Assembly: GCA_903848905.1 (NCBI GenBank)
Contig: CAINHP010000002.1
Span: 1 to 33,850 of the forward strand
From: an uncultured Pseudomonadota bacterium
GTDB taxonomy: Bacteria; Pseudomonadota; Gammaproteobacteria; Methylococcales; Methylomonadaceae
Direction: 5' to 3'
DNA length: 33,850 nucleotides
Below are positions 18,197-33,649 of the stretch, one piece after another. The notes below the pieces were generated by a model, which searched no databases, was not told the DNA's origin, and saw nothing but the letters and a program-made list of their open reading frames with translations. Position 1 is the stretch's first letter; the number at the start of each line of letters is the position of its first letter. The position numbers and the translations under genes were made by a program.

Positions 18197-18652
18197 TTAA
18201 GAATAGGATTTAGCGAACTTTTTCACATGATTAAACATTTCCAGCAAATTACCCGCTAGTCTATAGGACTGATTTAAAAGGCTAGTCTGCAACGCTAAAT
18301 CATCGGGGTAATCGTGAGAAAACGCATTATGAACTTCTCGTAGTAGCAGCCGATCGTCTGCGCTGTGAATAGCGCCAATTTGTTCTAATCGATTTAATTT
18401 ATCAATAAACGCTTTTAAGTCCCCTTGTTCTTTCGTGGCTTCGAGAACAGCAGGGAATGGCTTTGCACCAATTGCATCCTGTCATTTACCAAAGCGTGTT
18501 GAAAATTGGTTGAGAATCGCAATATCGACATCGGATAAATTTTCTAAACTACTAGCCGAAAGCGGGAAATGGTTTTGTAATGCGGTCATTGCCCAATTTA
18601 AACGATCCGCATGGCGATCGCAGATTTAAATAATTTCAATCATCGGGTTCAT
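18197..18652 (-). pseudogene. Broken HEPN-like toxin partner with two in-frame stops
   Basis: The frame runs 152 codons from ATG at 18652 to TAA at 18197-18199, but codon 9 is TAA (18626-18628) and codon 57 is TGA (18482-18484). No frameshift is needed. The helical product reads through DRHADRLNWAM, FGK*QDAIGAK, FIDKLNRLEQIGAI and LLREVHNAFSHDYP, the layout of HEPN-like proteins paired with minimal nucleotidyltransferases. The last segment stands where I expect the RN-x3-H RNase motif, but the Arg position is His. Its ATG overlaps the TGA of the nucleotidyltransferase gene by 4 bp, so the pair was once a coupled operon. It is almost certainly non-functional. Confidence 0.75.
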
Positions 18653-18954
18653 TGTAATTGAATACCCGTATCTTTATCGATGCCATAAATAGGAAGTATG
18701 TTAGTATTTTCTAAACGGAGTACGACATCAATTCTTTGCTCACCCAGTTCAGAATGAAGTGAACGCAAAAAGTGTAATTTTGCCATGGCGATCAGTGAAA
18801 TGTCTTGATTTTCGGGTTCGATATAAAGATCAATGTCGCCGCCACGTTTTGTATCATCCACACGCGAACCAAATAATCAAACATGCGTCATCTCACCGAA
18901 ATAGAGACGCGCCCTTTCGCAAATGGTTTGCTGTTGAAAATACGTTAAACGCAT
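18649..18954 (-). pseudogene. MNT-type minimal nucleotidyltransferase with premature TGA
   Basis: The 102-codon frame starts with ATG at 18954 and is intact apart from TGA at codon 26 (18877-18879), just before the nucleotide-binding LFGSRVDDTKRGGDIDL motif. One base change (TGA from TGG) explains the stop, since Trp is common before LFGS in this family. The rest, with its aspartates (GGDID) and the RIDVVL segment, is well conserved. Proteins of this kind pair with HEPN RNases as antitoxins that modify the toxin. The partner follows with an ATGA overlap and is also broken. Confidence 0.8.
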
Positions 18955-18994
18955 CTGGCTATTCTCTCTGTTGAATGTACTTTTAGACTACAAT

Positions 18995-19120: not shown

Positions 19121-19230
19121 TTAAGAATCTTTTATTTTTAATTCCGTTTGCAATATTCTTGCATAAAGTGATTTATTGGTAACTGCTCAATTTACACCAA
19201 AATAAATCTTTCCTTTTTACTTTTTTCATT

Positions 19231-19256
19231 TAAATTATTAACTGCTTGGTCGATAA
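19231..19256 (+). promoter_or_regulatory. Candidate sigma-28 (FliA) promoter of the chemoreceptor
   Basis: TAAATTAT at 19231-19238 and GTCGATAA at 19249-19256 resemble the flagellar sigma-28 consensus (TAAAGTTT, N11, GCCGATAA). The -10 box matches at 7 of 8 positions and the -35 box at 6 of 8, with a 10-nt spacer instead of 11. The start codon lies about 60 nt beyond the expected start site. Placement before a chemotaxis gene supports the call. Confidence 0.5.
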
Positions 19257-19323
19257 CGCTGTTTCCTAGAATCTAAAATTAAACGTTTTTTTCCACAAAT
19301 TTAAAAATTTTCGGTGATTTATT

Positions 19324-21240
19324 ATGGCTCTTATCAAAAAATCCTCGAGCGCTCCTATAACAAAAAATACAGAACGCTCAGACTCCGCTGAAACCCTTCG
19401 TAATGTAGAAGTTCAACGCAAAAAAGCGAGAACACTCGCAAAACAACAACAGGCCGCAGAACGTATTGCTGCAGCCACAGGTCAATTATCCTCGGGTATC
19501 AATGAAGCGGCGTCTGCAGCTGAAGAACTACGTCGCGCCTCGGATCAAATTGCAGCAGGCGCTGAAGAGGCATCAGGTGCTGCAGAAGAATCTACCGTTG
19601 CATTAAAGCAGGTAGTTAGTGCAATTGGTCGTCAACTGCAAAATGCAGAAACCTCCCAAACAAAAGGCGATAATGCTTACAATTTAATTGCCCGTGTTAA
19701 TACGGATATCAATGAATTGATTAAAAATGTCGGTCAAGCGGCTAGACGTCAAGCCTTATCAGTTGATATGGTTATTGAGTTGGAAAATCAAGCCGCGAAC
19801 ATTGGTGACATTGTGAAAGCGGTTGCGCGTATTGCCGATCAAACGAATTTATTAGCATTGAATGCTGCCATTGAAGCCGCGCGTGCAGGTCAGCACGGTA
19901 AAGGCTTTGCGGTAGTGGCTGATGAAGTACGCACATTAGCGGAAACCTCTGAAAAAAGTGCAAAACAAATTCAGGAATTAGTGGCGCAAATTCAAGGTGA
20001 AGTGAAAGTGATTGCTGAAGGGATTAATACGTCAGCGAAAACGGTGGAAGTCGAAGTTGAAAACGGTCGTCTGATTACCGAGCAACTCGAAAAAATTCGC
20101 GGGATTAGTATTGAAGTGGTTAATGGTATTCGTGATATTGCTACGGGTGCACAGCAATCAGTGACCGCGTCACAGCAGGCACTTATTGGCTCAGAAGCCA
20201 TTGCCGCAGCCGCTGAAGAGCAATCGGCCGCCGCTGAAGAAACCAGTAAAACCATTGATGAACAAGCACGTGCGCTTTCTGAATGTGAGCAACTTGCACA
20301 AAGTTTATCTGAGCTTGCTGAAGATTTGAAAACCTCAACTGATGTTGCTAAAAGTGCTGAAGAGGTTGCCTCTTCTGCAGAGGAATTATCCTCAGCGGTG
20401 CAAGAAATTAACCGTTCAGGTTCACAAATTATGGAGGCGATTAATCAAATTCGTGAAGGTGCTCGCTCACAAGCGTCGGCTACTGAAGAATCGGTTTCTG
20501 CGTTGACACAAATTCAAAAAGGCTTAGAAATTGCCCAAGAGCGCGGAACCAAAAGTTTAGATGCGGTGCGTGAAATTCAAGATTCGCTAACAACCAATAA
20601 AAAATTGGTGGACTCACTGATTAATGGTATTGGTAATTCGATGTCGAGTACACAAGACAGCATCAAACGTGTGACGGATTTAGAATTATTGTCACGTCGA
20701 ATTGATAAAATTGTGGATGCGATTGCAACCGTGTCTATTCAAACCAATATGCTTGCCGTGAACGGTTCGATTGAGGCGGCTCGCGCAGGTGAATTTGGTA
20801 AAGGCTTTGTGGTCGTTGCCACGGATATTCGTAATTTAGCACATGATTCAGCTGAAAATGCAGATCGCATTAAAGATTTAGTTAAAGCCGTACAAGATCA
20901 AATTGGCGTTGTCGGCAAAGATTTAGCTGAAATCGTTGTCAGTGCACAAACTGAAGTCGAAAAATCAAAATTGAGTACCAATAATTTACAAATTATTGAA
21001 ACAGATGTGTCGGAAATTGAGAAAGGCGCTGCGGAAATTTTAGCGGTGTCAGACGAAATTGCAGCGGCCATCAATCAAGTGAAAACGGGTGTGGATCAAA
21101 TTTCAGCCGCCGCGCAAGAAGCTGAAAAAGCGGCATCAGAAGCCGCTGCAGCGGCAACACAGCAATCACAAGGTGCTGAAGAATTGGCCACAGCAATTGA
21201 GGAAATTGCATCATTAGCGGATGAATTGCAAAGTGCGTAA
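19324..21240 (+). CDS. Cytoplasmic chemoreceptor with two tandem MCP signalling domains
   Basis: A soluble 638-residue coiled-coil protein with no membrane helix and no recognisable ligand domain. It carries two complete MCP hairpin tips: residues 171-206 ([17 protein letters not shown]...[13 protein letters not shown]) and 471-506 ([17 protein letters not shown]...[13 protein letters not shown]). The same motif positions recur at an offset of exactly 300 residues, including EES at 88-90 and 388-390, so the two halves are an ancient internal duplication. The second tip has diverged. MCP tips bind CheW and CheA. The architecture recalls DosM, the double-tip receptor of cytoplasmic arrays in Vibrio cholerae. 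It is followed 30 nt later by a triple CheW protein and is possibly transcribed from a sigma-28 promoter. Confidence 0.93.
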
Positions 21241-21270
21241 GCCTTGCAGCTCAATCTTTAGGAGATTGTT

Positions 21271-22878
21271 ATGACTAACGAGAATCTAAACGATCAGCCC
21301 GATTTTGAGCCGGTCGAAGATTTAGCACAGGCGTTGCCCGAAAGTGAGGAGCCATCATTCGATGAGTTGCAAGCTGAATTGCTAACTGAAGAATCGAATG
21401 TACAGCAATTCGTGACGTTTTATGCAGGCGGTGAAACCTTTGCTGTCGACATGGCGCCTGTACAAGAAATTATTCGTGTGCCTACCGTTGTGCGTGTCCC
21501 CCTTGTGCCTGATACGCTTGAAGGATTAGCGAATTTGCGTGGCAAAGTGTTGCCGATTATTTCATTGCGTCGTGTGTTTGGTTTTCCAGAACAAGAGTAT
21601 AACGACGCAACGCGCGCCATTGTGATTGATTTAGGCCAGCCTTTAGGGTTTGTAGTTGATCATGTGGCAAGTGTGGTTGGCGTTGAAATTAATAAAGTAC
21701 AAGATGTGACTTCAATTGGTGGCGTCGTGAATACCGAATTTTTGGCTGGACTGCTCAAAGATGTGGGTGGTGTATCCATGACCATGATTGTGGATTTTGC
21801 ACGATTAATTGCGCATGAGTTTTCGGATATTGCGCAAGCATCGAGTAATACGTCTGCAATGCGAAGTTTGACAGGGCAAGATGAGACGGTTGATGAAGGC
21901 TTTAGCGATGAACTGCATTTAGTGAGTTTTAGCGTGGCTGAGCAAGAGTACGCCATTGATATTCAAGACGTGCAGGAAATTGTCCAAATTCCCGATCAAA
22001 TTATCCATGTACCGCATTCGGATTCACACGTTTTAGGGGTGATGACGCTGCGTCAACGTATGTTGCCGCTCGTCAGTTTACGTCGAATGTTTGCGCTGCC
22101 TTTCCAAGAGGTGGATGAGAGTAGCCGTATTGTGGTGATTTCTGTAGGTAATGCGGCTGTAGGTGTTGTCATGGATACGGTCAACGAAGTCTTGCGCGTA
22201 TCAAAAAACGATGTCAGCGTGATGCCAGCCATGTTAGCGCGAGATGGCGATTTGTCTGAAATTAGCGAAATTTGTCGTTTAGATAATGGTAAACGCTTAG
22301 TGTCGATTATTTCAGCAGATAATATGTTCCGACATCAGGCCGTGCAAGAGGCATTGGGGGCTATTGACGGGAAAGGTGATGAGATGGAGCATCACGATGC
22401 GGCACGGGATGCAATTGAAGACGATGAACAAATGGTGGTTTTTCGTTTAGGAACTGAAGAATATGGCGTGCCTATTGAAAGCGTTCAAGAAATTGTGCGT
22501 GTGCCAGAGGAATTAACGCATGTTCCTAAAACACCTGCATTTGTGGAAGGGGTGATGAATTTACGTGGTAGTGTCTTGCCGGTTGTAGATCAACGTTTGC
22601 GTTTAAATTTACCCAGTTTGGCGCGCTGTGAGCAGCAACGGATTATGGTGTTTTTATTTGATGAATTGCGCACGGGCTTTATTGTGGATTCGGTGGCGGA
22701 AGTGCTTAAAATTCCGCGCTCGGCTATTGAACCTGCGCCACATTTATCAGTGAGTCAAGCGCATTTGATTTCGCGCGTGGCGAATTTAGAAAAACAAAAA
22801 CGATTAATTTTGTTAATTGATCCAACGCATTTACTGGAATCAAAAGATTTGAAAACGTTAAATGCGATGAATGTCTAA
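21271..22878 (+). CDS. Triple-domain CheW adaptor protein
   Basis: CheW couples chemoreceptors to the kinase CheA. This 535-residue protein has an acidic N-terminal tail (1-44) and three CheW domains in a row: about 45-182, 214-352 and 387-523. Each shows the FAVD/YAID/YGVP strand, a VQEI(I/V) helix, GLANLRGKVLP-like segment (second copy GVMTLRQRMLP, third GVMNLRGSVLP) and a closing GFVVDHV-type strand. Domain 2 has Gln in place of Gly in the NLRG turn, so its receptor or CheA binding may differ. Linkers of about 30 residues are acidic. The gene follows the double MCP gene with an AGGAG ribosome site and is surely in the same operon. No CheA, CheB, CheR or CheY lies in the window. Confidence 0.93.
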   Translation: MTNENLNDQPDFEPVEDLAQALPESEEPSFDELQAELLTEESNVQQFVTFYAGGETFAVDMAPVQEIIRVPTVVRVPLVPDTLEGLANLRGKVLPIISLRRVFGFPEQEYNDATRAIVIDLGQPLGFVVDHVASVVGVEINKVQDVTSIGGVVNTEFLAGLLKDVGGVSMTMIVDFARLIAHEFSDIAQASSNTSAMRSLTGQDETVDEGFSDELHLVSFSVAEQEYAIDIQDVQEIVQIPDQIIHVPHSDSHVLGVMTLRQRMLPLVSLRRMFALPFQEVDESSRIVVISVGNAAVGVVMDTVNEVLRVSKNDVSVMPAMLARDGDLSEISEICRLDNGKRLVSIISADNMFRHQAVQEALGAIDGKGDEMEHHDAARDAIEDDEQMVVFRLGTEEYGVPIESVQEIVRVPEELTHVPKTPAFVEGVMNLRGSVLPVVDQRLRLNLPSLARCEQQRIMVFLFDELRTGFIVDSVAEVLKIPRSAIEPAPHLSVSQAHLISRVANLEKQKRLILLIDPTHLLESKDLKTLNAMNV

Positions 22879-22888
22879 ATAAGGAAGT

Positions 22889-22914
22889 AGGGGCGGATTC
22901 ATTTCGCCCCTTAT
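22889..22914 (+). terminator. Probable terminator after the triple CheW gene
   Basis: A GC-rich 7-bp stem (22889-22895 with 22905-22911) with a 9-nt loop lies 10 nt after the stop codon. The T-tail is short and broken, so termination may be partial. Confidence 0.5.
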
Positions 22915-23151: not shown

Positions 23152-25197
23152 ATGCTTATTCGCCTAATCAGTTGTATTTTGTTAACGCATTTTTCTGTCG
23201 TAATGGCGGATACGTTAGATGTGGCTAAAATTCATAAAGCGTCCATTTCATTAACGTCTCATTTAGGTATTTTGGAAGATAAGGACCAAACGCTTACATT
23301 CGAAGAGATACAAAAAGAGCCTGTCCAATTCAAAACGAATTTGCCAGCAAGTGAAGCAATCAATTTATCTTATACTGCATCAGCATTTTGGTTAAGGTTC
23401 AATTTCGATAATAGCAGTAACGAGTCAATTGAAAAAGTCATTGAGATTAATCAATCTTTGCTAGAAAACGTGGATTTTTATTGGCAAACTCAAGGTAAAA
23501 CCATCAAAACGATTCACACGGGTTATGCCCACCCTTTTCAGAATCGCGCCTATAAAACCCGAGTATTCGCTTTTCCCTTGATGCTCAAGCCGCATAGTCA
23601 AAATGTTATCTATATAAGAGTTGCTTCACCTAACGCAATGAATATTCCTGTTCGATTATGGAATTTAGAGGAATTTCAAATCAAAGATCGCAATGCGCAT
23701 GTCTTTCAAGGTGTTTATTTTGGCATTTTGTTTGCCATTGCCATTTTTAGTTTAGCGATGGCAATGGTGTTGAAAGAGCTTGATTACGTTATTTACGTGT
23801 GTATTATTTTTTCGATTGCAATAAGTTTTATGTCGTTTCGAGGGTTGGGAACAGAACTTATTTGGCAAGATGCACCTGAATTCACAAAAGTGGGCACGTT
23901 ATTGTTTTCGTCTTTTGCGGCGATGGCGCAATTATTTTTTATTCGGCGAATATTGGATGTACGAACATTGATTCCAGGACTCGAGTACATTATGACGGGC
24001 GTGATGTTTTTGCTGTTATGTATTTCAATAGGTGTTGTATTGAATTTCACTATGACAGCCAAATATTCATCATTCGTATTAGTGGGTTATGAAATTTTTA
24101 TATTAGGGATTAGTTTCATTGGTGTTCTAAAACAAAGACGCAGTGCTCGATTCTTATTTGTGGGTTTATTGATGCTCACCATTGGTTTTATAACCTCTAT
24201 TCTCTATGCACTAGGATTTCTTCCCAGTAATACGTTTACGATGTATAGCTCTCAAATAGGGTCTGCACTGGAGTTATTGATTTTTACATTACTGCTAACG
24301 GATCGCTATCAGTTGATCCATTTGGAAAAATTGCAAAGCGATAGAAATTTAGAAGAAACAAATCTGCTTTTGCTAGCTGAAATCGAAGAACGTAAAGACA
24401 GTGAAAAGCGTCAAGTCGCATTAACCCATCAACTTAATCAAATGCAGAAGTTGGAGAGTATTGGGCGATTAACCTCGGGTATTTCACATGATTTTAATAA
24501 TCTCTTGATGGCAATATCGGGCTATAACGACTTGAATAAACTCTCAGCGAAAGATTTGACCCCAAGTCCGCTTATTGACGTTGAAAATATTAAAAATGAG
24601 TTATTGGATAATTCAAAACAAATTGATATTGCTTGCTACAAAGCTAAAAAGTTAATTGCTCAAATGCTGAGTTATTGCCGCCGCGATCAAAGTGAAGTCG
24701 TCGAAAATCCGGTATTTAATGTCAATAATGAAATACATGAATCGCTAGATATGATTCGTAAAATGATTCCAAGTACTATTCAATTTGAGCTCAATCTTTC
24801 TGATAAAGTCATTGCCTTGCAGCAACTTGATGAATCAAAATTTAATCAAATTATTGTCAATTTATGCGTCAATGCTTCACACGCTATTGCCTTCGCGAAG
24901 GGGACGATTCAATTTTACACAGGACAGACACAATTAAAAGGGGTGTGCAGCTGTTGTCAAAAACATTTTGATGGCAATTTTGTGGAGGTTCGCGTTTCTG
25001 ATAATGGATCGGGCATTGATCCTGTCGTCGTAAAACGTATTTTCGAGCCGTTTTATACGACTAAAGAGGTGGGTGAAGGGACGGGTTTAGGCTTATCAGT
25101 GATTGCTGGTATTGTACATAATGCGAATGGCTACATTTTACTCGAAAGCGAAGTAGGCGTAGGCACCACATTTAGATTGCTCTTTGCTTATCAATAA
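23152..25197 (+). CDS. 7TMR-DISM sensor histidine kinase
   Basis: Inner-membrane kinase of 681 residues. It has a signal peptide (1-19), a periplasmic DISMED2-type beta domain (about 25-175, with the SAFWLRF segment), seven transmembrane helices (about 185-385), a coiled coil (390-435), a HisKA domain with phospho-acceptor His446 in HDFNN, and an ATPase domain with N box (NLCVNASHA), DNGSGI, FEPFYTTK and GEGTGLGL. A CSCCxKH cluster (Cys599, 601, 602) sits between the N box and the G1 box. The 7TMR-DISM module is thought to sense carbohydrate or other small ligands. There is no receiver domain in cis and no regulator next door. Confidence 0.9.
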   Translation: MLIRLISCILLTHFSVVMADTLDVAKIHKASISLTSHLGILEDKDQTLTFEEIQKEPVQFKTNLPASEAINLSYTASAFWLRFNFDNSSNESIEKVIEINQSLLENVDFYWQTQGKTIKTIHTGYAHPFQNRAYKTRVFAFPLMLKPHSQNVIYIRVASPNAMNIPVRLWNLEEFQIKDRNAHVFQGVYFGILFAIAIFSLAMAMVLKELDYVIYVCIIFSIAISFMSFRGLGTELIWQDAPEFTKVGTLLFSSFAAMAQLFFIRRILDVRTLIPGLEYIMTGVMFLLLCISIGVVLNFTMTAKYSSFVLVGYEIFILGISFIGVLKQRRSARFLFVGLLMLTIGFITSILYALGFLPSNTFTMYSSQIGSALELLIFTLLLTDRYQLIHLEKLQSDRNLEETNLLLLAEIEERKDSEKRQVALTHQLNQMQKLESIGRLTSGISHDFNNLLMAISGYNDLNKLSAKDLTPSPLIDVENIKNELLDNSKQIDIACYKAKKLIAQMLSYCRRDQSEVVENPVFNVNNEIHESLDMIRKMIPSTIQFELNLSDKVIALQQLDESKFNQIIVNLCVNASHAIAFAKGTIQFYTGQTQLKGVCSCCQKHFDGNFVEVRVSDNGSGIDPVVVKRIFEPFYTTKEVGEGTGLGLSVIAGIVHNANGYILLESEVGVGTTFRLLFAYQ

Positions 25198-26631: not shown

Positions 26632-28494
26632 ATGAATAACCATGAATATGTCTTAACTGAGCATGATATTATTGTGACGAGAACCGATTTACATGGCGTT
26701 ATTACGTTTGTGAATGAAGATTTGTTGCGCATTTCAGGATTTACGCGCGAGGAATTAATGGGTTTTAAACATAATATTTTTAGGCATCCCGATATGCCAG
26801 CAGACGTTTTTTCAGATTTATGGCGCACTATTCTTAGTGAATGTACATGGTCGGGCATTATTAAAAATAAAACAAAGGAAGGGGGTTTTTATTGGGTTCA
26901 GGCCGATGTGACGCCACTTTATGAGAATGATGTTTTAATTGGGCATATGTCGGTTAGACGACAACCGGCGCTTCATGATATTAAAAGGGCAGAATTAGCT
27001 TATAAGCAGATGAAAGCCGGCGTATTTAAAGGAAAGCTAAGCTTCGGGGCGATTGTCGAAAAACCATTTTTTCATAAAATTCAACGCAAATTTATTAATA
27101 TCAGTGTCGCCATAAAACTGGGTATATTGCTCAGTTTAAGCGCCTTTTTCATTTTATTTCTTGCTGCAATCAACCACCATACCTTAAATACGCTCAATGA
27201 TTATTATCAACAGCGCCTAGTTCAAATTCAAAGCGATACAACAAAAGTCTATCAAACGCAACTCCAGCAATTGCATGAGGATGAGATTAAAATTCAAGAA
27301 CTCGAAGATAAAATTGCGCTTTTGGAAAATTTGCCCGTAGAGTCGAGTCATCGCGTTATAAATCAGAAAGTGGATACGAAATTACTGGATTTTTTTTATG
27401 AAGAAAAATCACAGTTAAATAACAATTTTCTAGATATACAGAATAAAAATATTTTTTTCGGGATCATGATTCTGATTGCTCTGGTTCTATTATGTGAATT
27501 TATCATTCGCAGTATTCTTGTTCCGCTAAAAGAAGCCACGCATGTATTAACGCAAGTTGCCAATGGCAATTATCGGGTGCCTATTGTTTATCGCTCGAAA
27601 AATGAAATTGGACGAATGATGGAAGCGTTACGTTCAACGTCCGTGCGTTTGGGTTTTGATATTGCCAATGAGAAAAAAACGAGCACGGAAATAATTCAAG
27701 CACTCGAAAAAAATCAGGCACTTAACCGTCAAGTCACTCAAATGCAGAAAATAGAAAGTTTGAGTCGATTAACATCGGGAATTGCGCATGATTTTAATAA
27801 TATTCTCGCAGTCATTGTGGGTTATACGCAATTAAATCAATTTGTCGCCGATGACTGTCAAGATGAAAAGTTAAAAGAAGATCTTTTGTTTAACACGAAT
27901 CAAATTGAGATTGCAAGTGCGCGTGCAATGAGTTTAATTAAAAAAATGATGCTCTATTCACGTCAAAATCCCGTTGATCATGAAATGGAGATTAAGCCTA
28001 CAAAACAGGTTATTGATGAAGTCTTAGAGATGATAAAGCCGGCATTAACCAGTGCATTTCATCTTCACGCAATGATAGATTGTGAGCGAGATATTCAAAT
28101 TGATTCTATTGGCTTGCATCAGATTTTAACTAATTTGATTGTCAATGCGCGAGATGCCATGAGAGGTATTGGTGGCGGTATTGAAGTTTCCCTCAAAACA
28201 ATGACAACGCATGGGCTAGTTTGTAGTGCCTGTTCACATCATCTGGAAGGTCAATATATTGAATTGCGTGTGAGCGATAGTGGCACAGGGATTGGGGAAA
28301 GCGTGATTGAAAACATTTTTGATCCCTTTTTTACTACAAAACCCGCTGGTGAAGGCACTGGGCTGGGTCTTTCAACAGTGAGTGGTATGGTGCATGATGC
28401 ACAAGGGCATATTATTGTGGAGACCAGAACGACTGAGCCAAATCAAGGGACGGCTTTTAGATTATTATTTCCGATTTTAAGTAATCTGCCCTAA
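26632..28494 (+). CDS. Aer-type PAS sensor histidine kinase
   Basis: A 620-residue kinase. The N-terminal PAS domain (about 10-110) is close to that of the aerotaxis receptor Aer: NIFRHPDMP at 48-56, Trp73, KNK at 78-80 and YWV at 87-89 are its hallmark residues for FAD binding. Next come helix 1 (about 159-181), a mostly helical extracytoplasmic part (182-272), helix 2 (273-295), HAMP (296-350), HisKA with His386 (AHDFNN) and the ATPase domain (N box NLIVNARDA, DSGTGI, GEGTGLGL). It has a CSACSHH cluster (Cys531, Cys534, His536, His537) before the G1 box. It probably senses redox or oxygen through FAD. An AAGGG ribosome site precedes the ATG. Confidence 0.9.
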   Translation: MNNHEYVLTEHDIIVTRTDLHGVITFVNEDLLRISGFTREELMGFKHNIFRHPDMPADVFSDLWRTILSECTWSGIIKNKTKEGGFYWVQADVTPLYENDVLIGHMSVRRQPALHDIKRAELAYKQMKAGVFKGKLSFGAIVEKPFFHKIQRKFINISVAIKLGILLSLSAFFILFLAAINHHTLNTLNDYYQQRLVQIQSDTTKVYQTQLQQLHEDEIKIQELEDKIALLENLPVESSHRVINQKVDTKLLDFFYEEKSQLNNNFLDIQNKNIFFGIMILIALVLLCEFIIRSILVPLKEATHVLTQVANGNYRVPIVYRSKNEIGRMMEALRSTSVRLGFDIANEKKTSTEIIQALEKNQALNRQVTQMQKIESLSRLTSGIAHDFNNILAVIVGYTQLNQFVADDCQDEKLKEDLLFNTNQIEIASARAMSLIKKMMLYSRQNPVDHEMEIKPTKQVIDEVLEMIKPALTSAFHLHAMIDCERDIQIDSIGLHQILTNLIVNARDAMRGIGGGIEVSLKTMTTHGLVCSACSHHLEGQYIELRVSDSGTGIGESVIENIFDPFFTTKPAGEGTGLGLSTVSGMVHDAQGHIIVETRTTEPNQGTAFRLLFPILSNLP

Positions 28495-28547
28495 AATACT
28501 TGGTTAATTTTAATGAAATATGCTTATCTCAAGTCAACAGCAAATTT

Positions 28548-31500
28548 ATGTTAACCACTAAATTCTTCACGCTAATGCAAATTCTGGCTTTAGCTTTTGT
28601 GTATTTGCTGAGCAGTCAGTTATGTAGCCTGGTAGGCGCACCTAACGAATTTGGTAGCGTTATTTGGCCACCTGCTGGAATTTCACTGGCTTGTCTTGTT
28701 ATATTTGGCTCTCGACTTTGGTTGGGGGTATTTATGGGGGCATTTTTAGCAAACCTCTATTTCATTTTCAATCTAGCGAATACGTTAACGTCGTTGTCTT
28801 ATATTACGGCAAGTATTGAAGCTGTTGGCGCTACCTTGGAAGCGTTGGCGGGTGTTTGGTTAATGAAGAACCTAGCCCATTTCCCTAATCCGCTGCATAC
28901 AGAAAAACAAATTGGTTTGTTTATGGTGTGTGCTTTTTTGTCTTGTTTTACCTCGCCTACTGTTGCGATGGCAGCACTGACCTTAACGAATCAAATTTCC
29001 CTCAATGTTGCTGAGTCACATTGGATTGATTGGTATCTAGGCGACTTTATCGGCATGCTCATTTTTACACCGTTGGTGTTGATTTGGCTACATCGTTCTG
29101 CCTATTTTGATGGAAGACGGTTGGTTTTTAGCGTATCGGTGCTTACTGCCTTGCTACTGACCGTTTTACTTGTGAGCTATGAATTTGATGAAGAGCAAAA
29201 GCGCCTTCGCATTGAATTTGAAAAAGATACGCAAGTGATTAACGCGGCTGTAGAAAAAAAACTCTTAGGACATTTTAATTCACTTTATGCGATCGGCAGT
29301 TTATACAGTAGCTCAGAAGGGGTAAATCGACGTGAATTTGGGGCATTTGTCCGTCATCTCTTTCATGTATTTAGAGGCATTCAAGCACTCGAATTCAGTC
29401 AAGTGGTCACGAATTCCCAGCGTAAAGCGTTTGAAGCGTCTATTCGACAAGAAGGTTTTAGTAACTTTTACATTACCGAGCGAGACAAAAATAAAAACAT
29501 GTTAACTGCCGCGCAACGTGACCGTTATGTAGTGGTGAATTTTATTGAACCCATGAAGGGTAATGAAAAAGTATTTGGCTTTGATACGTTTTCTGATGAA
29601 AGTCGCAAGCAAACTTTCAATCAAGCCATCGACAGCGGTAAATTGACCTTAACGTCAAAGTTATCGCTCGTGCAGGAGCGCGGCACACAATCGGGGGTAT
29701 TAGCCATTTTGCCTGTGTATCGCAATGATATGGCTCACAATACAGTCGATGAGAAAAGGGCGAATATCCAAGGCTTTATTGTCGGTGTTTTTCGGATTGG
29801 TGACATGATTGATTCGGCATTAAATGAAATCAAGCATGAAAATTTAGCTATTCAACTTTATGATAACAGCAGTGATGCAGAATCAGATGTCTTATATGAA
29901 ACTCAAGAAATGTCAGCACGCGCATTAAATCTGACGAATTCGTTCATGATGAAGTTGGGTGATCGTTTTTGGCAAATGAAAATTTCAGCAACAAAAGACT
30001 ATTTAGAGAATCATGATGGATTAAGCTCAAATCACATTCATTCCAATTTTGCTTGGCATATTCTGCTAATGGGATTAATCATCACCAGTTTAATCGGTAG
30101 TGCTACCTTAATTATCACTGGCCGCAAGATGCTACTTGAAGATCTCATTAAAATTCGCACGGCTGAGCTGGCAAAAAGTGAGGAAAATTTTCGTACGATG
30201 GCTGATGCCACGCCTGTACTTATTTGGCAATCAGATAATGATGCGATCTGTTTTTGGTTTAATCAAGTGTGGCTAGATTTTGTTGGGCACTCACTTGAAG
30301 AGGAGATCGGAGAGGGTTGGTTGGACGGTGTTCATCCTGAAGATATTGAACATTGTTTTGATATTTATCATATCAATTTTAATTTACGTCTTCCGTTTAA
30401 AATGGAATATCGACTTAAACATCATAATGGTGACTATCGCTGGATACTCGATACGGGCATACCACGCTTTAATGCATTAGGTGATTTTGATGGCTACATA
30501 GGGTCTTGTATTGATGTTTCGGAGTTTAAACATACTCAGCAAATCATGAATGAAGCCAAAGAAGCCGCCGAAGTCCTTGCGCAGTCAAAAACCGATTTTC
30601 TGGCGAATATGAGCCATGAAATTCGCACACCCATGAACGCGATTATTGGCTTATCTCAATTAGCGCTGAATGTACCCGCTAATCGACAAAGTGATTATCT
30701 CGAAAAAATATTAGGAGCATCTGAAACGTTGCTGGATATCCTAAATGATATTTTAGACTTCTCAAAATTGGATTCTAACGCCATCAAAATGGAGTATGCC
30801 TCCTTCAATTTAGACCATTTACTCAATAATTTACATAATTTATTTAGCGTCACTGCAAGACAAAAAAATATAAAATTCATCTTAGATATTGACCCCCTCA
30901 TACGTCGCGAATTAATGGGCGATGCGCTCCGTTTGCAACAAGTATTAACCAATTTACTTAACAATAGTATTAAGTTCACTCAAATTGGACTTGTGCAATT
31001 GATTGTCACTCTTGTGCACCAAGAAAATGAAAAAATCGCATTAACATTTTCGGTCATTGACACGGGCATTGGAATGAACGAAGCCCAGCAAAAAGGGTTA
31101 TTTCAAGCGTTCTCGCAAGCGGATACTTCAATTAGTCGGCGTTTTGGTGGTTCAGGACTTGGCCTTGTCATTAGTCAAAAATTCGTTGAATTGATGGGCG
31201 GTAAAATTACTTGTCAGAGTACGCCTGATTTGGGTAGCGAGTTTTCCTTCACAATCCCTTTTGATATAGCAAAATCAGGTAAAGGCTCAGAAGCGATTAT
31301 ACCAAGTCCCCCTAAAAAAACACTTGCGCAGCGCCTTGCTGAGGCCGCAGAGTCGCTCAAAAATGTTCGGGTACTTCTCGTTGAAGACACACCACTCAAT
31401 CAACAAGTAGCGAGTGAATTCTTGCGCAATGCTAAATTAGATGTCACTGTGGCTGATAATGGCCAAGAGGCGTTAGATTTGCTTGAACACAATTCGTTTG

Positions 31501-31739
31501 AAGTAATTTTAATGGACATACAAATGCCAGTGATGGACGGGTTAGAAGCGACAAAAATGATTCGGGAGAATCCAAAATTTTCACAGCTGCCCATTATTGC
31601 GATGAGTGCAGGGGTGACTTTGGATGAACAAGAAAAATGTCACTTAGTGGGTATGAGTGATTTTATTCCCAAGCCGATTAATCCTGTTCAGATGCTAGAG
31701 AAAATTCAGCAGAATTTAATTTCACCATCCAATGTGTAG
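28548..31739 (+). CDS. MASE1-CHASE-PAS hybrid sensor histidine kinase with receiver
   Basis: Inner-membrane hybrid kinase. I chose ATG 28548 (1063 aa); a TTG at 28500 adds 16 residues, and neither has a clear ribosome site. Domains by order: MASE1 membrane domain of about eight helices (5-200), periplasmic CHASE (about 250-430), a transmembrane helix (about 505-525), PAS (545-660), HisKA with His690 in NMSHEIRTPMNA, ATPase with RFGGSGLGL, and a C-terminal receiver with phospho-acceptor Asp990 (LMDIQMPVMDG). There is no Hpt domain, so phosphotransfer to an output regulator must use another protein. The ATPase and receiver parts are close to those of the next gene. Confidence 0.9.
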   Translation: MLTTKFFTLMQILALAFVYLLSSQLCSLVGAPNEFGSVIWPPAGISLACLVIFGSRLWLGVFMGAFLANLYFIFNLANTLTSLSYITASIEAVGATLEALAGVWLMKNLAHFPNPLHTEKQIGLFMVCAFLSCFTSPTVAMAALTLTNQISLNVAESHWIDWYLGDFIGMLIFTPLVLIWLHRSAYFDGRRLVFSVSVLTALLLTVLLVSYEFDEEQKRLRIEFEKDTQVINAAVEKKLLGHFNSLYAIGSLYSSSEGVNRREFGAFVRHLFHVFRGIQALEFSQVVTNSQRKAFEASIRQEGFSNFYITERDKNKNMLTAAQRDRYVVVNFIEPMKGNEKVFGFDTFSDESRKQTFNQAIDSGKLTLTSKLSLVQERGTQSGVLAILPVYRNDMAHNTVDEKRANIQGFIVGVFRIGDMIDSALNEIKHENLAIQLYDNSSDAESDVLYETQEMSARALNLTNSFMMKLGDRFWQMKISATKDYLENHDGLSSNHIHSNFAWHILLMGLIITSLIGSATLIITGRKMLLEDLIKIRTAELAKSEENFRTMADATPVLIWQSDNDAICFWFNQVWLDFVGHSLEEEIGEGWLDGVHPEDIEHCFDIYHINFNLRLPFKMEYRLKHHNGDYRWILDTGIPRFNALGDFDGYIGSCIDVSEFKHTQQIMNEAKEAAEVLAQSKTDFLANMSHEIRTPMNAIIGLSQLALNVPANRQSDYLEKILGASETLLDILNDILDFSKLDSNAIKMEYASFNLDHLLNNLHNLFSVTARQKNIKFILDIDPLIRRELMGDALRLQQVLTNLLNNSIKFTQIGLVQLIVTLVHQENEKIALTFSVIDTGIGMNEAQQKGLFQAFSQADTSISRRFGGSGLGLVISQKFVELMGGKITCQSTPDLGSEFSFTIPFDIAKSGKGSEAIIPSPPKKTLAQRLAEAAESLKNVRVLLVEDTPLNQQVASEFLRNAKLDVTVADNGQEALDLLEHNSFEVILMDIQMPVMDGLEATKMIRENPKFSQLPIIAMSAGVTLDEQEKCHLVGMSDFIPKPINPVQMLEKIQQNLISPSNV

Positions 31740-31750
31740 CGGTCAAGATT

Positions 31751-33649
31751 ATGTCGATAAAAAATAGAAAGAATCCATCCGCGACGAATTTTTTTATCGT
31801 GTTGCTCTCATCACTTTTTATAAGTGAAACGCTCATTATGTTGCTTATGAGTGAATTGCCGGCGATGTCAGAGTGGCACGAAGCCTTTATAGATGCTTCA
31901 CTGCTGGTGACCATTAATTTTCCGTTGATTTATTATTTTTATTTTTTGCCTTTAATTCGTTTTACAAACCTTGTTAACATCAATCGAGACGAGTTACTCG
32001 CTAAAAATAATGCATTAGAAATAGAGGTGAATACCAATAAACGCCAAGCATCGTCCTTAGCGTTACTCATGGCTGATCGTAAAAAAATCGATGCGGAAAG
32101 AGAGCGATTGTTAAAGATTTTAAATGAAGCGAGTGATTTTATCGGAATGGCCGATATGCAAGCGAATATAACGTATCTTAATCCCGCAGGAAAAAGAATG
32201 GTGGGGTTAGCGGAGGAAGCGGATGTTTTGACACTTAAAATTCATGATATGCACACGCATGAAGCCGCGCAATTTGTGTTAAACGAGGCGATTCCCTATG
32301 TGTTAGAGCATGATAGTTGGCAAAGTGAAAATACGTTATTGCACAAATCAGGACACGAACTTGCGGTATCACAAATTTTGAGTCTTCATCGAGATAGTCA
32401 AGGCAAGCCAGAATTTTTATCGAGCATTATGCGCGATATTACGGGGGTAAAACAGGCAGAACAAGCGATGCTTGACGCTAAAGAAGCCGCTGAAACGCTC
32501 GCGCAATCCAAAACCGATTTTTTGGCGAATATGAGCCATGAAATTCGCACGCCAATGAACGCCATTTTGGGTTTATCTGAACTGGCTCTGCATTCAACAG
32601 AAAATAATCAAAACGACTACCTTGAAAAAATTCATGGTGCATCTGAAAATTTACTCATCATTCTCAATGATATTTTAGAGTTTTCAAAATTAGATTCAAC
32701 AGGCGTTGAAATTGATTCCGATTATTTTAATTTAAGTCTATTAATAAACAATCTTAATAACTTATTTGAAGAAACCGCTCGACAAAAAAATCTCACGTTT
32801 CATTTAGAGGTTATGCCTGATGTGCAGCGACATTTGATTGGCGATGCACTGCGACTGCAGCAAGTGTTAACAAACTTACTCAACAACAGTATTAAATTCA
32901 CGAAAACGGGTTTTGTGCGTCTTAAAATAGCCGTTTCACAGCAAGATGAGAAGCCTATTTTATTAACATTTTCCATTGAAGACAGTGGCATTGGCATTAG
33001 CCCAGAACAGCAAAAATTGCTATTTCAGCCCTTTACACAAGCGGATACGTCTATTACGCGTCGTTTTGGTGGCACCGGTCTTGGCCTTGTCATTAGCCAA
33101 AAATTTATTCATTTAATGGGCGGGGAGATTTCCTTAGAAAGTACCTTAAATGAAGGCAGTCATTTTTGGTTTACGTTGCCTTTTGAAATTGCGAAGAAAT
33201 CGCACTCAACCGAGTTTTTACCTGTCAAACAAAATAAACGCGCAACGAAAGAGCAATTAGAAGAAGCCGCAAAATTACTTTTCAATAAACGGGTTTTATT
33301 GGTTGAAGATATGCCGCTTAATTAGCAAGTAGCCAGTGAATTTTTGCGTAACGCAAAACTGAGAGTGGTGGTTGCCGACAATGGCAAAGAAGCCTTGGAC
33401 ATACTCGAATTTAGTAATTTTGATGTCGTTTTAATGGATATTCAAATGCCGGTCATGGACGGCTTGGAGGCAACACGGTTAATTCGCGAGCAACCCCAAT
33501 TTGCGACGCTACCCATTATTGCCATGAGTGCAGGGGTAACGCTTGACGAACAAGAAAAATGTCAGGCAGCGGGCATGAGCGATTTTATTGCCAAGCCGAT
33601 TAATCCACTAAACATGTTAGAAAAATTAAGAGATTTGTTAATCAAATGA
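31751..33649 (+). pseudogene. PAS hybrid histidine kinase split by an amber codon before the receiver domain
   Basis: The frame runs 633 codons in all, with TAG at codon 525 (33323-33325). Upstream: two membrane helices (about 13-34, 48-69), a coiled coil, PAS (120-235), HisKA with His263, ATPase with RFGGTGLGL, and the first receiver strand with acids Glu519-Asp520. After the stop the same frame continues with the rest of the receiver, including phospho-acceptor Asp563 in LMDIQMPVMDG. The paralogue upstream has Asn-Gln-Gln-Val at this point, so one C-to-T change (CAG to TAG) explains it. The 524-residue kinase may still be made without a working receiver; restart at a TTG at 33344 is possible but unsupported. 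It begins 11 nt after the previous kinase. Confidence 0.8.

Follow-up and report, generated by a model that had tools for sequence, protein, structure and literature searches.

A two-gene chemotaxis locus

The window (i.e. the whole stretch of DNA analysed, the 33,850-nt contig CAINHP010000002.1 of assembly GCA_903848905.1; all coordinates are positions in this contig, and its genome is referred to as G000) carries two adjacent forward-strand genes, dosM and cheW3, separated by 30 bp and followed by a hairpin and a histidine kinase gene (Table 1). A prior sequence-only reading had described three CheW domains in one chain, coupled to a receptor with two signalling tips, and both descriptions held: the cheW3 product, translated from an ATG start, gave three separate PF01584 matches (106, 107 and 127 bits, each above the Pfam cut-off; whole-protein E 1.4e-95), and the gene across the 30-bp gap encodes a protein with two MCPsignal matches. 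In DosM (638 aa) a transmembrane segment and a sensor domain were looked for, and neither was found; its tips 1 and 2 differ in type and are equally conserved across 79 DosM sequences.

Table 1. Features of the dosM-cheW3 locus and its immediate surroundings (positions in CAINHP010000002.1)
Feature	Position	Strand	Basis
dosM leader and first 14 codons (stretch with a probable relic in G014)	19188..19365	+	80% over 178 bp
dosM, soluble receptor, 638 aa, two signalling hairpins	19324..21240	+	two PF00015 (MCPsignal) matches
DosM signalling tip 1, residues 159-215	19798..19968	+	near-invariant across 79 DosM
DosM signalling tip 2, residues 459-515	20698..20868	+	near-invariant across 79 DosM
Probable cheW3 ribosome-binding site, AGGAG, 6 bp before the ATG, inside the 30-bp gap	21260..21264	+	
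cheW3, triple CheW adaptor, 535 aa	21271..22878	+	Pfam; AlphaFold; best PDB matches
CheW domain 1 of CheW3	21406..21819	+	PF01584, 106.3 bits
CheW domain 2 of CheW3	21919..22338	+	PF01584, 107.4 bits
Leu-Arg-Gln of CheW3 domain 2 (LRG in domains 1 and 3)	22048..22056	+	never Gly in 85 CheW3
CheW domain 3 of CheW3	22429..22842	+	PF01584, 126.8 bits
Hairpin directly 3' of cheW3, 9-bp GC-rich stem	22889..22911	+	folding energy
7TMR-DISM histidine kinase, downstream neighbour	23152..25197	+	Pfam; same order in G013:C41

The hairpin, which probably marks the end of the dosM-cheW3 two-gene unit, lies in a 55-nt stretch with a folding energy of -20.9 kcal/mol (z -4.5). The 7TMR-DISM kinase behind it occupies the place that cheB takes in class F9 clusters (see below) and stands outside the dosM-cheW3 module. 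No CheA, CheB or CheR was found on the 33.85-kb contig (by ORF and Pfam analysis), which bears out the earlier remark that no CheA is nearby, though two CheA genes lie elsewhere in the genome (on contigs C149 and C173).

As for the flanks, three more consecutive sensor kinases (26632-33325, +) are found behind the 7TMR-DISM kinase, and the N-terminal PAS of the first resembles the PAS of an Aer-like receptor on contig C149. Between a HAD gene and dosM (18200-18960, reverse strand) there are frame fragments that resemble a decayed nucleotidyltransferase (GDIDLYIEP motif) and a partner gene, and that, judged by eye, are possibly a broken HEPN-MNT pair.

The pair carries the class F9 signature

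Two proteins define the class F9 chemotaxis systems: DosM, a receptor whose signalling domain is doubled, and CheW3, in which three CheW domains are concatenated (PMC9321776). As the window pair encodes two PF00015 matches in 638 aa next to three PF01584 matches above the cut-off, we assign it, on the grounds of its encoded domains, to the published DosM-CheW3 signature; the module is thus of a kind already known, and the idea of a new one falls away. In cluster I of V. cholerae (class F9), DosM corresponds to VC1403 and the triple CheW to VC1402 (PMC7534058), and the same pair is part of a cluster with CheB, CheR, CheY and CheA (PMC7534058, PMC11940527), whereas the window pair lies outside the F9 cluster of its genome, which is located on another contig. 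The V. cholerae F9 array, known by cryo-tomography, is two-layered and purely cytoplasmic, its receptors being held between two CheA/CheW3 baseplates, both of which are spanned by DosM (PMC7534058).

Although dosM and cheW3 are adjacent at the window locus, cheB, cheR, cheY and cheA are missing on the contig, so that the locus alone represents a partial F9 set, in a genome that, as judged by sequence identity, holds the CheA of a full one. Partial F9 sets exist in Nitratiruptor and Nautilia, which likewise have dosM and cheW3 without cheA in the cluster (PMC9321776). In these two, however, cheBR still belong to the cluster and the genome lacks an F9 CheA (PMC9321776), and the genome studied here does not belong to their type because its contig C173 encodes an F9-cluster CheA (recognised by identity to the CheA of F9 clusters).

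The F9 clusters of Methylobacter, Methylomonas and Methylotuvimicrobium (e.g. M. tundripaludum SV96, locus L070; M. buryatense 5G, locus L077) encode the same proteins in the same pair order, with CheW3 63-70% identical to that of the window. In these clusters the pair is followed by cheB-HEAT-cheR-cheY-cheA, while in the window it is followed by the hairpin and the 7TMR-DISM kinase. The window DosM is 64-79% identical to most of the F9-cluster DosM compared, and 44% to a divergent subtype.

Distribution and gene order

Triple CheW proteins were recovered from 14 of the 18 genomes of the genus (own genome included) and from 3 further genera of the family, with DosM directly upstream of CheW3 wherever this could be checked. 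A database scan of 84,980 species genomes yielded 335 related stretches, the best 80 of which were examined; these spanned Methylobacter, Methylomonas, Rhodocyclus, Thiocystis, Polaromonas, Janthinobacterium, Desulfobulbus, Desulfovibrio and Acidobacteriaceae. Among these best 80 of 335, DosM precedes CheW3 in all 76 loci that reach far enough upstream, and an F9-type CheA is encoded downstream in all 70 that reach far enough in that direction. The pairing is therefore not confined to one genome, and its recurrence (14/18 genus genomes, 3 further genera, the best 80 of 335 loci) indicates that the combination of a triple CheW with a two-tip receptor is not due to chance. The question raised by the sequence-only reading, namely which CheA co-occurs with such loci, is answered by the F9 type (70/70); the same count speaks against its suggestion of a CheA-less array.

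In relatives the F9 cluster runs dosM-cheW3-cheB-HEAT protein-cheR-cheY-cheA (often then cheY, a receptor and parA), and annotated Methylosinus and Azospirillum records show the same order. A CheD identity was considered for the ~210-aa cluster gene and rejected, as it encodes the HEAT-repeat protein.

Several loci departed from the common picture. In four genomes of the same genus (loci L061, L062, L066 and L069) DosM is only ~46% identical to the others; in the tree it branches outside 75 further DosM, although the CheW3 of these four groups with the genus. This suggests that the receptor was swapped or evolved very fast. Locus L061 (11923-12696), as well as L062, encodes between the F9 cheA and cheY a protein of 258 aa in which a partial CheW domain is fused to a CZB zinc-binding domain. 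Two F9 dosM-cheW3-cheB sets in opposite orientation lie within ~10 kb in L126 (Burkholderiales, PBB6), and L088/L095 and L082/L106 are also paired loci, each pair from a single genome. Furthermore, CheW3 genes were present on 12 plasmid records (Azospirillum, Methylosinus trichosporium OB3b, Methylobacterium, Sphaerotilus and Eleftheria); in the two that were inspected the F9 cluster is complete, and a transposase lies close to that of Methylosinus.

Predicted structures and the three CheW domains

The AlphaFold model of CheW3 (pTM 0.41) comprises three confident CheW folds of like build on low-confidence linkers, and in Foldseek it best matches CheW chains of the PDB, with TM-scores (by target length) reaching 0.85; by PF01584, AlphaFold and Foldseek alike, each of the three domains belongs to the CheW fold. 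DosM is modelled as two long helices (23-337 and 341-637, mean pLDDT 89), each of them bearing one tip at its middle.

Each CheW3 domain has the fold of the single-domain CheW of E. coli and T. maritima (PDB 6s1k, 2ch4), whose VQEI Glu and LRG Arg are likewise present in all three domains, and are kept there in 85/85 CheW3 sequences. CheW3 differs in having three domains per chain, and in that the second lacks the NLRG Gly family-wide. The Gln noted earlier in domain 2, and taken there as a hint of specialised binding, is indeed present (TLRQR, against NLRG in domains 1 and 3), but it is not peculiar to the window protein: domain 2 is without Gly in all 85 CheW3 (N 58, S 14, Q 7, E 4, H 1), and both other domains retain it in all 85. 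The Gln is thus a minority spelling of a family-wide loss of Gly. Since domains 1, 2 and 3 form one clade each across the 85 CheW3 (support 0.90, 0.999 and 0.71, respectively), the triplication of the CheW domain is old.

Domain 2 is the least similar to an ordinary single CheW (profile score 94, versus 142 and 149 for the other two). Against CheA P5 the profile scores are 64.6 for domain 2, 60.1 for domain 3 and 52.7 for domain 1, and a role of domain 2 as P5 mimic is not claimed, its score being too close to those of the other domains.

CheA genes in the genome and in its sister genome

The C173 CheA is 62-79% identical to the F9-cluster CheA of 16 relatives (98% in the sister genome G013) and ~37% to the other CheA; it is orthologous to the CheA of the relatives' F9 clusters. 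The C149 CheA belongs to a full che cluster beside genes resembling flagellar hook-filament junction genes, which has two single CheW proteins of its own. Contig C173 begins inside the intact CheA reading frame and is matched over 8.1 kb (97.4% identity) by contig C58 of G013, where the order is CheW3 (cut by the contig end)-CheB-HEAT-CheR-CheY-CheA. A further G013 contig (C41) carries the lone pair, which at the DNA level is 96% identical to the window, with the same 7TMR-DISM kinase behind it. G013 thus has two CheW3 genes, one lone (C41) and one in the cluster (C58), that are 79% identical, and the content of C41, C58 and C173 shows that both genomes possess the lone pair along with the CheA of a normal F9 cluster; that G013 combines the two is a second point against a CheA-less array.

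The canonical cheW3-cheY stretch was sought in G000 and not found, and a search of the genome returned no second assembled CheW3 or DosM. As C173 starts inside CheA, the cluster cheW3 of G000 is unassembled, and we tentatively attribute the missing cheW3-cheY stretch to a gap in the assembly. Likewise, neither the G000 nor the G013 assembly contains a second dosM, and since the cluster contigs end inside CheA and CheW3, respectively, a second dosM in G000 is not proven.

Duplication, selection and a probable deletion scar

In a tree built from 86 CheW3 sequences the lone copies of G000 and G013 group together, and the cluster copy of G013 is their sister (support 0.999), from which we conclude that the duplication took place inside this lineage. 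The lone CheW3 has the longest branch in the genus; at near-invariant columns it shows only three changes, all of them conservative, and in the lone DosM all such columns are intact. Between G000 and G013, dN/dS is 0.04 for the lone CheW3 (0.0049/0.125) and 0.015 for the lone DosM (0.0027/0.182), both below that of the cluster CheA (0.0119/0.142 = 0.08), and these low values show that the lone pair is under strong purifying selection.

A further relative, G014, has no CheW3 and no close F9 CheA (best match 37%). Nonetheless, its contig C104 (12121-12298) matches the dosM leader and first codons of the window with 80% identity over 178 bp (E 5.8e-40), and the match occupies the corresponding site, the same HAD gene preceding it. 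Of 17 genus members, G013 is the only other one to have this leader stretch. The dosM remnant of G014 joins directly to a short match to the end of cheW3 (AATGCGATGAA), a stop and then a GGGGC...GCCCC element resembling the hairpin behind the window cheW3, beyond which comes a superoxide dismutase-like ORF and no cheB. On the simplest reading, which we consider likely although the 3' half of the match is short, the lone two-gene unit already existed when the G014 line branched off, and G014 subsequently deleted it. Contig C20 of G007, similar to the sequence that precedes the pair, was considered as an empty site and dropped as a probable contaminant (for a nearby gene region, G007's own copy is 79% identical and that of C20 92%).

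Interpretation of the locus

Taken together, we hold it to be most probable that the locus is a second, stand-alone dosM-cheW3 copy of the F9 system of a Methylobacter-like methanotroph, adding to or varying the scaffold of an array that is run by the ordinary cluster. By homology with V. cholerae, DosM, with a tip at each end, would span two baseplates, to which CheW3 would supply three tethered CheW ring units, its flexible linkers bringing adjacent positions of the ring within the range of one chain. Most likely, the lone copy would raise or vary the supply of scaffold to a two-layer cytoplasmic F9 array, for which the ordinary F9 cluster, at its separate site in the genome, would provide the kinase (the C173 CheA) and the adaptation enzymes. 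The proposal of the sequence-only reading that the pair is a structural module served by a CheA encoded elsewhere is in keeping with what is published for F9 (PMC7534058, PMC9321776) and with the presence of the C173 CheA; this half of its interpretation stands, whereas the CheA-less array does not.

It is unlikely that the genome contains a single dosM-cheW3 pair, i.e. that the cluster lost its own and relies on the relocated one: the lack of any other assembled CheW3 or DosM in G000 is what such a loss would leave, but the start of C173 inside an intact CheA frame is the mark of an assembly gap, and the relative G013 keeps its cluster CheW3. Improbable, too, is that the lone pair builds a separate cytoplasmic array free of CheA, with a purely structural or sequestering role. 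Such an array would fit a contig devoid of CheA, CheB and CheR, the existence of partial F9 sets (PMC9321776), the formation of V. cholerae F9 arrays without CheA, though in fewer numbers (PMC7534058), and the divergence of the copy (79% identity to its cluster sister, longest CheW3 branch in the genus). Against it stand the F9-cluster CheA of the same genome and the unchanged interface-type residues (VQEI Glu and LRG Arg, three domains, 85/85), because of which no feature separates the lone pair from an ordinary array. We give little credence to a more elaborate version, in which the pair would form a compositionally distinct two-layer array without a kinase of its own, with CheW3 domain 2 in CheA P5 positions and array growth independent of CheA.

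It is still more doubtful that the pair serves the flagellar-linked C149 system as a class hybrid, of the sort proposed for Nitratiruptor (F14) and Nautilia (F3) (PMC9321776): the full che cluster of C149 beside flagellar-looking genes would offer a partner, but the hybrid species are without an F9 CheA, which the present genome has, and C149 already has its two single CheW proteins. Neither a CheA-free nor a C149-tied array is supported by positive evidence. Finally, a decaying duplicate, as the apparent deletion in G014 and the long CheW3 branch could indicate, is very improbable in the face of the strong purifying selection between G000 and G013, the full-length frames and the retained invariant columns.

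On the stand-alone reading, the unusual feature of the window copy is its separate location only, its parts being known; what is new is that a Methylobacter-like lineage has kept under selection a stand-alone duplicate of the F9 scaffold pair, of which a relative retains a probable deletion scar. F9 loci are widespread, a single scan having yielded 335 related ones. Specific residues to mutate are offered by the way in which CheW3 domain 2 and the two DosM tips diverge throughout the family. The host, a methane-oxidising lake bacterium, maintains under selection a separate copy of just two scaffold genes, and this lone pair offers a natural experiment in which to ask whether F9 arrays are governed by the dose or by the composition of their scaffold.
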